From the NCBI GenBank assembly GCA_020049775.1, contig JAGVLO010000009.1:1-64000 (forward strand): a DNA stretch of 64,000 bases, written 5' to 3'. Made by a program: the position numbers and the translations under genes. Each line of letters opens with the position of its first letter. The stretch's first letter is position 1. Shown piece after piece: positions 45,540 through 49,089 of this stretch. The stretch is from Alphaproteobacteria bacterium. Its GTDB lineage: Bacteria > Pseudomonadota > Alphaproteobacteria > Rickettsiales > SXRF01. A model generated the notes under the pieces. The model saw only the letters and a list, made by a program, of their open reading frames with translations. It ran no database searches and had not been told where the DNA came from.

Positions 45540-45668
45540 CTAAGGCGTGGTAAGGCACATAAGGTCAGTGGGATCACACTGCGCCTGCGCAACAGCAACC
45601 ATGCCAACCGCACCCAGCGCCAGTAACACCGCCGCGGCAAGTACATATATTCTACGACGTGACGCCAT
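45540..45668 (-). CDS. Exported 42-residue peptide, copy 2
   Basis: This small gene encodes a basic N-terminus, a hydrophobic segment (about residues 8-26) and an AQA-Q signal peptidase I site. The predicted mature peptide has 13 residues starting QCDPTDLMC, with cysteines at positions 31 and 38. It is a clear paralogue of the gene 12 bases upstream, with identical length and Cys spacing. A weak ribosome binding site, AGCAGG, precedes the ATG. It is not a lipoprotein, since the residue before the cysteine is Gln. The function is unknown. Confidence 0.75.
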   Translation of the reverse strand: MASRRRIYVLAAAVLLALGAVGMVAVAQAQCDPTDLMCLTTP

Positions 45669-45680
45669 AAAAACCTGCTT

Positions 45681-45809
45681 CTACGGCGTACTCATGCACA
45701 TAAGATCCATGGGGCCGCACTGCGCCTGCGCAGTGGCAACAACACCGATGGCGCCCACCAATACCAGCAATACGGCAAGCATGATGTATTTCTTGTAATG
45801 CGGTAACAT
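45681..45809 (-). CDS. Exported 42-residue peptide, copy 1
   Basis: This small gene has a good ribosome binding site (GGAG, nine bases before the ATG). The product begins MLPHYKKYIMLAVLLVLVG, then has AQA-Q as the likely cleavage site. The mature peptide would be QCGPMDLMCMSTP, with Cys31 and Cys38 able to form a seven-residue disulfide ring. Copy 2 follows 12 bases downstream and keeps the pattern C-x-P-x-D-L-M-C-x-x-T-P. Two paralogues with conserved ends argue that these are real genes. The role is unknown: secreted signal, toxin or envelope peptide. Confidence 0.78.
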   Translation of the reverse strand: MLPHYKKYIMLAVLLVLVGAIGVVATAQAQCGPMDLMCMSTP

Positions 45810-46145: not shown

Positions 46146-46324
46146 TAATCCGCCAACAGTCCCAAGGCGGCATGCCCCCTCAAACGGCTGGCATACTCTT
46201 CGATCTCGCTGATGGTCAGACTTTCGATATCACCTACCAAAGCGCATTCCATAGAATGTAACGCCTTAAAAGCCTCTATATTTCTATAATTCAATGTATT
46301 TTCAGTTATTTCCTTGCTAGCCAT
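46145..46324 (-). CDS. Small soluble protein, 59 residues
   Basis: First gene of the minus-strand operon. The ATG at 46324 follows GAGG by five bases. The product is acidic and helical (MASKEITENTLNYRNIEAF, then LTISEIEEYASRLRGHAALG), without membrane segments. The promoter is probably the class II arrangement formed by the TTGAC-N4-GTCAA box at 46392-46405 and a TATGAT -10 element at 46370-46365. I do not recognise the family. Confidence 0.6.
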   Translation of the reverse strand: MASKEITENTLNYRNIEAFKALHSMECALVGDIESLTISEIEEYASRLRGHAALGLLAD

Positions 46325-46364
46325 ACACACCTCGCTTAGCCTCCCTTGTCTTGATTATATGGGC

Positions 46365-46405
46365 ATCATAGGCCTGTGGGCATAAAAGCATTTGACTATG
46401 GTCAA
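46365..46405 (-). promoter_or_regulatory. Fnr-type box and -10 element of the small-peptide operon
   Basis: The palindrome TTGAC-TATG-GTCAA lies at 46392-46405 (centre 46398.5). On the minus strand TATGAT occupies 46370-46365, giving a start near 46357 and a box centred at -41.5, the class II activation position. The box also lies 48 bases before the divergent regulator gene, where a comparable -10 is not obvious, so autoregulation is possible but weaker. Confidence 0.72.
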
Positions 46406-46452
46406 CGGAGGTAAAATAATGCTTCTTTCTAACAAACCTTTGTAATTTAACT

Positions 46453-47211
46453 ATGTCTACCACCGTTGCACCACAAACCATCCACGCCATGCTACTCTTC
46501 GCCGGACTGAGCGAGAATGAAAAGAACGAACTGATAAAAGGCGGCCGCCTACGCCAGTGTTCACGCGGGGAACATCTGTTCCTGCATGGGGATCCTGTAA
46601 AATCGTTCTACATCATCAGTAAAGGTACCGTACAGCTGTTCCGCGAAACACCAGACGGTCATGAAAAAACCATCGACGTCGTCAAATCAGGACAGACGAT
46701 GTGTGAAAGCGAAATTTTGGATTCCTGCCGTAATCACCGCGTCAATGCCATGGCGCTTAATGATGTAACAGTCATGGAGTTTCCGGTAGCGTGGTTGAAA
46801 GATAGTGCGCGCAAATATAGTGCGTTCGCGCTTAACCTGTTATCACACATTGCGCAGCAAGCGCATATGGCAGAGGTGGAAGCCGAACAACGCGCCAATA
46901 TGAAAGCGGCACAGCTAGTTGCATGTTTCCTGCAACGCATGTGTGTACTCTATGATTTCGACCCCAAAGGATTTGAACTCCCCTACAGCAAAACCATCAT
47001 AGCAAGCCGTATCGGTATGGAGCTGGAAACATTCTCGCGCACGCTTGCGAAATTGAAAGAGCATGGCATACTTGTGAAAGGCTCTCACGTTTCCATTACC
47101 GACCTTGCTAGCGTTGAACAATATGTGTGCGCTGCCTGCTCAATTGCAGAAGACTGCCCGACACATAAAGAAATGGAACGCAAAAGCAGCAACAAGTCTG
47201 GCGACGCGTAG
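46453..47211 (+). CDS. Crp/Fnr-family transcription regulator
   Basis: This is a 252-residue regulator with an N-terminal cyclic-nucleotide-binding-like beta roll (GEHLFLHGDPVKSFYIISKG) and a C-terminal winged helix (SKTIIASRIGMELETFSRTL). The recognition helix has E-x-x-S-R, the set that reads TTGA half sites. There is no N-terminal Cys cluster as in Fnr. Instead Cys226, Cys229 and Cys235 form CAACSIAEDC near the end, which is unusual. Three TTGAC-N4-GTCAA boxes lie around the gene, so it or a paralogue probably controls the neighbouring operons and ccoN. Confidence 0.9.
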   Translation: MSTTVAPQTIHAMLLFAGLSENEKNELIKGGRLRQCSRGEHLFLHGDPVKSFYIISKGTVQLFRETPDGHEKTIDVVKSGQTMCESEILDSCRNHRVNAMALNDVTVMEFPVAWLKDSARKYSAFALNLLSHIAQQAHMAEVEAEQRANMKAAQLVACFLQRMCVLYDFDPKGFELPYSKTIIASRIGMELETFSRTLAKLKEHGILVKGSHVSITDLASVEQYVCAACSIAEDCPTHKEMERKSSNKSGDA

Positions 47212-47265
47212 CCATCCCTGAGTCACTTTCTTCATTCTGAATATTTTCAATATCATTTTTGTTTC

Positions 47266-47306
47266 TTGACTGGCGTCAAATACTCGCACGCCATTTAGCG
47301 ATAAAA
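47266..47306 (+). promoter_or_regulatory. Fnr-type box and -10 element of the small RNA candidate
   Basis: TTGAC-TGGC-GTCAA at 47266-47279 is centred at 47272.5. ATAAAA at 47301-47306 fits a -10 element, which predicts a start near 47314 and a class II box position of -41.5. Confidence 0.65.
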
Positions 47307-47313
47307 AGAACGC

Positions 47314-47379
47314 ACCTGTTTATATTCAAATGACCCCTGCCCTGATGGCACAAGGCTCCCCGCCTTGTGCCATTTTTTT
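47314..47379 (+). ncRNA. Candidate oxygen-regulated small RNA, C-rich
   Basis: A transcript of about 66 bases is predicted between the Fnr-type promoter and the terminator. Its 5' part is unpaired and contains the C-rich run ATGACCCCTGCCCTG, of the kind that base-pairs with Shine-Dalgarno sequences. Its 3' part is the terminator hairpin. No open frame of value is present. By analogy E. coli FnrS and Pseudomonas PhrS are Fnr/Anr-activated small RNAs. It could instead be only the 3' end of the regulator mRNA. Confidence 0.5.
47345..47379 (+). terminator. Perfect intrinsic terminator
   Basis: ATGGCACAAGGC (47345-47356) and GCCTTGTGCCAT (47362-47373) form a perfect 12-pair stem with a TCCCC loop, followed by seven Ts. 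It ends the small RNA candidate and any read-through from the regulator gene. Confidence 0.95.
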
Positions 47380-47463
47380 AGCGCATGACCTCACAACATT
47401 ATATTTGATGCCGCCGATAAGATGATAGCCGAATCTAGTAATCTTTTCATGTTGTTAGATGTA

Positions 47464-47505
47464 TTGACCGTGGTCAAATACATGCGAGGCAGCACATAGT
47501 AGCCT
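47464..47505 (+). promoter_or_regulatory. Fnr-type box of the cco cluster
   Basis: TTGAC-CGTG-GTCAA at 47464-47477 is centred at 47470.5. TAGCCT at 47500-47505 lies where the -10 element should be, so transcription would start near 47512, 22 bases before the small gene that leads into ccoN. Fnr/FixK control of cbb3 operons through such boxes is well known in Alphaproteobacteria. Confidence 0.78.
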
Positions 47506-47533
47506 AGCAATTCCATACAGTATTGAGGGGGTT

Positions 47534-47677
47534 ATGTTTTATCGTTTTCTTATGATACTCAGCGTGGTGATAGTCACGGCACATTGCGACAAGCTGCTTT
47601 ACAAAAAGGATGCGGAGGAAGCGCCGCAAGACACACAAACGCCGCAGCAACAATCCAGTGAGCGGGAAGCCACATGA
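47534..47677 (+). CDS. Small protein leading the cco operon, 47 residues
   Basis: An ATG behind GAGGGGG starts a 47-codon gene whose stop overlaps the ccoN start (ATGA). The first 18 residues are hydrophobic ([18 protein letters not shown]) and act as a signal or membrane anchor. The rest is polar, rich in Gln, Glu and Pro ([19 protein letters not shown]). The residues before the cysteine (TAH) do not form a good lipobox. I know of no named cco gene at this place. It may help assemble the oxidase; that is inference from coupling. Confidence 0.65.
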
Positions 47678-49089
47678 GCACAAGGCCCTTACCCGATTAT
47701 AACGATGACATAGTAAAATTATTCACCCTCGCCTCCGTATTCTGGGGAGTGGTGGGTATGCTGGTAGGGCTGGTGATTGCCCTGCAGCTGTGTTTTCCGT
47801 GGCTGAACTTTGAACCCTATTTTTCCTTTGGACGCCTGCGCCCTGTCCATACATCGGGGGTTATTTTTGCGTTTGGCGGCAACGTGCTTTTCGCCACCAG
47901 CTATTTTGTCGTCCAGCGCACCTGCCGCACGCGGCTATGGAACGACAAGCTGGCGTTTTTTACTTTCTGGGGATACCAACTGTTCATTGTAATGGCCGCC
48001 GTAGGCTATGTGTTTGGCGTCACGCAGAGTAAGGAATATGCCGAACCGGAATGGTATGCCGATCTATGGCTGACGCTAGTCTGGGTTTCTTATCTGCTGA
48101 TTTTTATGATGACGCTTCGCAACCGAGAAGAACCGCATATTTACGTCGCCAACTGGTTTTATCTGGGATTCATCGCCACGGTTGCCGTGCTGCACCTTGT
48201 CAACAACGTCTCACTGCCCGTATCGCTCATGGATGCTAAAAGTTATTCACTGTGGTCTGGCGTGCAGAGCGCTATGATTCAATGGTGGTATGCGCACAAC
48301 GCTGTTGGTTTTTTCCTGACGGCAGGATTCCTTGGCATCATGTATTATTTTATACCCAAGCGCGCCAACCGCCCGATTTATTCTTACCGTCTTTCTATCC
48401 TGCATTTCTGGTCGCTTATTTTTATCTATATGTGGGCGGGACCGCACCATTTACTCTATACAGCGCTGCCAGATTGGGCGCAGACGCTGGGCATGACCTT
48501 TTCCATTATGCTGTGGATGCCATCATGGGGCGGCATGATTAACGGTATCATGACGCTGTCCGGCGCATGGCACAAGTTGCGTGAAGACCCGGTGCTACAA
48601 TTCATGATTATCGCCCTGGCATTCTACGGCATGAGTACGTTTGAAGGCCCGCTGATGTCGATTAAGGAAGTGAACGCCCTGTCGCATTATACCGACTGGA
48701 CCATCGGCCATGTGCATTCAGGCGCTTTGGGCTGGGTCGCGTTTATCAGCTTTGGCGCACTGTACCATCTTGTTCCGGTATTGTGGAAACGCCCCGAGCT
48801 GTACTCCATGCGCCTTGTCAGCTTTCATCTGTGGATTTCCACTTTTGGCATCGTGCTATACATCACCGCCATGTGGATTGCCGGTATCATGCAGGGGCTG
48901 ATGTGGAGGTCATACGATGATATGGGCTTCCTCACCTATTCCTTTGCAGAAACCGTACAGGCCTTGCATCCCTACTATCTGATACGCGCACTCGGTGGGG
49001 CGCTCTATCTGGCTGGCATGCTGATCATGGTCTATAACTTGTACAAGACCATTTGCCCTGGTTGCCGGAAGGAGACCGCAGCATGCTAG
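47674..49089 (+). CDS. ccoN: Cytochrome cbb3 oxidase subunit I
   Basis: This is the catalytic subunit of the high-affinity cbb3-type terminal oxidase in the inner membrane. It reduces oxygen at the heme b3/CuB site and pumps protons. The 471-residue protein has about 12 membrane segments. Heme and copper ligands are visible in [43 protein letters not shown] and [11 protein letters not shown]. It is translationally coupled to the small gene upstream and overlaps ccoO by seven bases. Confidence 0.97.

Follow-up and report, generated by a model that had tools for sequence, protein, structure and literature searches.

In this alphaproteobacterial genome, an FNR-type box, weak -10 candidates and a terminator hairpin all lie between a CRP/FNR-type regulator gene and a cbb3 oxidase operon. 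We tentatively suggest, with somewhat less than even confidence, that together they specify a discrete, box-driven and lineage-specific small RNA in the 3' untranslated region of the regulator gene, sharing the regulator's terminator (Table 1). The DNA comes from Alphaproteobacteria bacterium (Rickettsiales; SXRF01; assembly GCA_020049775.1), and the window, by which we mean the whole 64-kb stretch analysed, covers positions 1-64,000 of contig JAGVLO010000009.1. In the proposed mechanism, the regulator would bind three boxes around its own gene, and the middle one (box 2) would activate a promoter inside the regulator's 3' untranslated region, from which RNA polymerase would start at ~47312-47314 (or 47333) and stop at the hairpin end (47379), yielding an RNA of 47-68 bases. 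Its synthesis would follow activation of the regulator, which probably occurs at low oxygen; Hfq would bind the U-tail, and the RNA would mask the G-rich ribosome-binding sites of target mRNAs, with the same hairpin also terminating the regulator mRNA. A shared hairpin combined with a promoter of its own would make the candidate a small RNA of the 3'-UTR type.

Table 1 Features of the region between the regulator gene and the cbb3 operon, in window coordinates
Feature	Position	Strand	Basis
Box 1, TTGACTATGGTCAA, upstream of regulator gene	46392-46405	+	Pattern match
CRP/FNR-type regulator, 252 aa, C-terminal CX2CX5C	46453-47211	+	Pfam cNMP_binding and HTH_Crp_2, cysteines
Box 2, TTGACTGGCGTCAA, 54 bases past regulator stop codon	47266-47279	+	Pattern match, shuffles
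Weak -10 candidates GATAAA / TAAAAA (4/6), putative start ~47312-47314	47300-47307	+	
Alternative -10 TATATT (5/6), putative start ~47333	47321-47326	+	
Candidate small RNA, 66-68 bases (47 if the start is 47333)	47312-47379	+	Inferred
Terminator, 13-pair hairpin and seven T	47344-47379	+	
Box 3, TTGACCGTGGTCAA, upstream of cbb3 operon	47464-47477	+	Pattern match
47-aa ORF, stop overlapping ccoN start	47534-47677	+	Pfam: no match
ccoN, first main gene of cbb3 oxidase operon	47674-49089	+	Pfam COX1

The Fnr-type box claimed in the initial annotation is borne out, and box 2 is beyond chance, because dinucleotide shuffling of the 132 bases from the regulator stop codon to the hairpin produced a site of the strict TTGAC-N4-GTCAA type in 4 of 20,000 rounds (43 of 20,000 for the looser TTGAY-N4-RTCAA type). 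The looser pattern is found four times in the window versus 0.23 expected and 17 times in the whole genome, where the reversed control pattern gives 4 matches. Strict sites number four genome-wide, three of which surround this regulator gene; the fourth lies inside a called ORF on contig C5. Among the 15 of 17 genome boxes that were read, box 2 alone is followed by a terminator less than or equal to 110 bases downstream. The -35 element of a near-consensus promoter (TTGACT, 17 bases, AATAAT; 46392-46420) overlaps box 1, suggesting autorepression by the regulator.

With three of the four strict sites around its gene, and as the only protein in the genome with HTH_Crp_2 above the Pfam cut-off (one weak match reaches 17.5 bits versus 27), the regulator would be the natural reader of boxes 1-3. 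Its recognition helix carries ETFSR, which from knowledge of FNR we take to fit a TTGA half-site, and a box is found within 300 bases upstream of the gene in 8 of the 17 other aligned regulator-family sequences. The NCBIfam models FtrB, Fnr, FixK and FnrL all scored the regulator far under their cut-offs (Fnr: 57.5 versus 228), and among solved structures those closest to it are 3fx3/3h3z and DNR of Pseudomonas. DNR senses nitric oxide, and by analogy the regulator may do the same. In E. coli FNR the cluster ligands form an N-terminal CX2CX5C; no such N-terminal motif was found in the regulator, where CX2CX5C sits at the C-terminus. An alignment of 18 family sequences, its own among them, shows this motif conserved in 13 and a further CX5C pair in 14. 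Bacillus Fnr, as described in the accessible part of PMC3520743, also has a C-terminal [4Fe-4S] site, with CX2CX4C and an aspartate as ligands, a cysteine spacing that differs by one from that of the regulator. Because such a site is known there, oxygen sensing by the regulator is plausible, and it is a possible alphaproteobacterial case of an iron-sulfur sensor whose site is C-terminal.

The hairpin (47344-47374) has a loop of 5 and 13 pairs, and seven T at 47373-47379 overlap its end. It had been called a perfect terminator; it is indeed strong, on the plus strand only, but one of the 13 pairs, at the base, is G-U and the other 12 are Watson-Crick. The segment 47314-47380 is predicted to fold at -23.0 kcal/mol (z -6.87), with none of 200 shuffles as stable, and all predicted pairs fall within the terminator, leaving the first 30 bases unpaired. 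The C-rich stretch noted earlier is present but short (ACCCCTGCCC); the unpaired 5' part contains ACCCCUGCCC. The statement that no protein is encoded stands as well: four frames of 22-31 aa overlap 47290-47385, none of them convincing, and the sole plus-strand frame starting inside the candidate region (47330) continues through the hairpin. No second copy of the candidate was found in its own genome, and a 24-base partial match on contig C7 proved, on reading, not to be this hairpin.

Sequence comparison found no DNA homologue of the candidate in 54 relatives (55 genomes including its own) or in 384 genomes of the class (385 including its own). With the threshold at E 1, 45 of the 54 relatives gave nothing beyond short pieces, the best scoring 37.4 bits over 20 bases; with it at E 0.01, 9 of the 384 class genomes gave matches 26-45 bases long. 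All of these were taken for chance. The layout was compared before ccoN, which is present in 59 of 174 genomes; of the 30 loci compared, one is the window's own, two (L074 and L076) had no locatable ccoN and one (L056) comprises only ~260 upstream bases. A TTGA-N6-TCAA box lies within 900 bases before ccoN in 23 of the 27 readable relatives, at 67-857 bases, but in none of the 27 does a terminator follow it closely: seven carry a terminator-like hairpin, never in the 200 bases after a box. A membrane-protein ORF directly before ccoN, found in 12 of 13 relatives' loci read, is absent at the present locus; the one tested (L055) is DsbD_2 by Pfam (PF13386). In the relatives read, a DsbD_2-type or similar ORF takes the place of the 47-aa ORF, which has a hydrophobic start and one cysteine and is lipoprotein-like by eye. 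The genus has one further genome in the set (74% complete), in which ccoN was not found and no box lies within 400 bases after the regulator.

With no homologue and no like layout before ccoN in relatives, the candidate is, as far as these genomes tell, limited to its own genome. As the turnover of small RNAs is rapid, this absence weakens the claim of a small RNA without excluding it. An order-wide pattern of a box followed by T6 matched at least 119 of 174 genomes, many matches being AT-rich stretches, and was set aside. Among the matches listed for family-wide patterns, 94 box directions (the window's own absent) included two with a hairpin of at least 7 pairs. One of these two (L163) lies inside a called ORF. 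At the other (L200; genome G005, contig C47), a 10-pair terminator-like hairpin, divergent from that relative's cco box, lies 75-102 bases from the box (near locus position 1623), possibly another box-driven short RNA, or chance. In a further relative (L041), the stop codon of a paralogous regulator is followed after 72 bases by a box, but by no strong terminator by eye.

A -10 element at the right distance had been claimed, and GATAAA (47300-47305) and TAAAAA (47302-47307) do match at four of six positions, placing the centre of box 2 at -39.5 and -41.5, respectively, but both are weak and are equalled on the minus strand by AATATT and CAGAAT (4/6 each), and the best hexamer, TATATT, has no good -35 and would put box 2 at -60.5. 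A promoter profile built from the cco boxes of 23 relatives (6 of 29 loci without a box being left out) scored +1.73 on the plus strand and +2.56 on the minus strand at box 2, and as high at 11% and 6%, respectively, of 4000 random window positions; it did not separate the two directions. The -10 is weak and undirected, the plus strand being no better than the minus strand, and the sequence would fit more than one start site, and either direction, for a putative independent transcript. Transcription from box 2 on the minus strand, as an antisense RNA that starts at ~47231 and enters the regulator gene from its 3' side, would suit the symmetry of the box, the minus-strand hexamers and the slightly higher minus-strand score. 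We nevertheless regard it as quite unlikely, given that the strong terminator serves the plus strand only and that no strong minus-strand terminator was seen near box 2 in the regulator gene, where only a 7-pair one (~46654-46675) was found.

A more serious rival, which we consider possible though doubtful, is that the hairpin is the regulator's terminator and nothing else, and that box 2 is an extra operator from which no stable RNA starts; it could act, for instance, as a roadblock or as a second site close to the promoter of the cbb3 operon, 198 bases further on. The hairpin, 132 bases past the regulator stop codon, also fits as the terminator of that gene and, so placed, would end the regulator mRNA in any case. 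Across 464 kb, nine of the 14 strong intergenic terminators lie within 60 bases past a stop codon (heuristic gene calls), a point for the small RNA; that two of the 14, the present one included, lie at 100-400 bases counts for the rival, as do the weak -10 matches and the layout's lack of conservation in relatives. The rival, however, leaves a chance-rare box, placed exactly where the stop codon and the hairpin enclose it, with no promoter to serve. We find it very unlikely that box 2 survives from an older or duplicated promoter of the cbb3 operon, stranded by a change in the genes that precede ccoN: the relatives' membrane-protein ORF is missing here and ATAC directly follows both box 2 and box 3, but the flanks of the two boxes show little likeness (identity at 13 of 40 bases upstream, 19 of 60 downstream) and box 2 itself is intact. 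The reading as an Fnr-activated small RNA, as first annotated, keeps in its favour the FNR-type operator, the sRNA-like terminator and the Hfq encoded in the genome, but has against it the weak, undirected -10 and the lack of a homologue.

FnrS of Escherichia coli combines an FNR-type box, a short RNA and a terminator, and PhrS of Pseudomonas is a short RNA under Anr-type control. The initial annotation had assigned the candidate the layout of these two RNAs, and the layouts are alike, but in an Rfam scan of 46300-47700 (E up to 5) no family reached its curated score, and FnrS and PhrS, models of which Rfam presumably includes, were not listed. Sub-threshold matches were SdsR_RyeB (20.8 bits, cut-off 38), Atu_C9 on the minus strand (14.8, cut-off 40) and TeloSII_ncR30 (12.9, cut-off 86). 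The likeness to FnrS and PhrS is one of layout only, and the neighbourhood differs from that of FnrS. Two features common to FNR-type-regulated sRNAs were found, namely the upstream FNR-type box and an intrinsic terminator with a U-tail, which may equally belong to the regulator mRNA; a conserved pairing region or targets, also expected of such sRNAs, were not found for the candidate. The accessible part of PMC8139620 describes FnrS as an sRNA under FNR control in anaerobiosis, PcrZ of Rhodobacter sphaeroides as having a PrrA site and depending on PrrA and, perhaps indirectly, FnrL, and NarS of E. coli as an FNR-dependent sRNA from the 3' end of narK mRNA. PcrZ targets photosynthesis genes, and its likeness to the candidate is one of layout, the sequences having been compared by the Rfam scan alone. 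Like NarS, the candidate is located 3'-terminally in the mRNA of another gene, but that gene is in this case the regulator itself, and a separate promoter is proposed. A literature search joining small RNA, Fnr, Alphaproteobacteria, cbb3 and terminator returned no report, and the accessible parts of PMC8139620, PMC9723704, PMC4842269 and PMC3520743 hold nothing on the present locus.

Hfq-type sRNAs act by pairing with G-rich ribosome-binding sites, and by analogy ACCCCUGCCC of the candidate RNA could pair with such sites. Across 405 start regions, predicted duplexes showed no excess over shuffled RNA, the five best averaging -25.3 versus -23.8 (s.d. 1.5) for 100 shuffles; gene starts were heuristic, and that of ccoN was entered as 47758 instead of 47674. 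The 47-aa cbb3 leader ORF ranked 83 of 405 at -15.5 kcal/mol, as low as in 20 of 100 shuffles, and Pfam gave no match for three of the five top-ranked target genes. Since targets are not in excess, a PcrZ-like incoherent loop on the cbb3 oxidase stays a guess.

If real, the small RNA would be part of a highly compact circuit for responding to oxygen, with regulator, small RNA and oxidase run from three like boxes in 1.1 kb, in an alphaproteobacterial lineage that has been little studied, and would be a clear case of a small RNA born where a regulator's own site precedes its own terminator. Elsewhere in the window, the minus strand carries two tandem 42-aa ORFs (45540-45668 and 45681-45809), which have no match among 15 other family genomes; each has a hydrophobic stretch, and their tails are alike (CDPTDLMCLTTP and CGPMDLMCMSTP).
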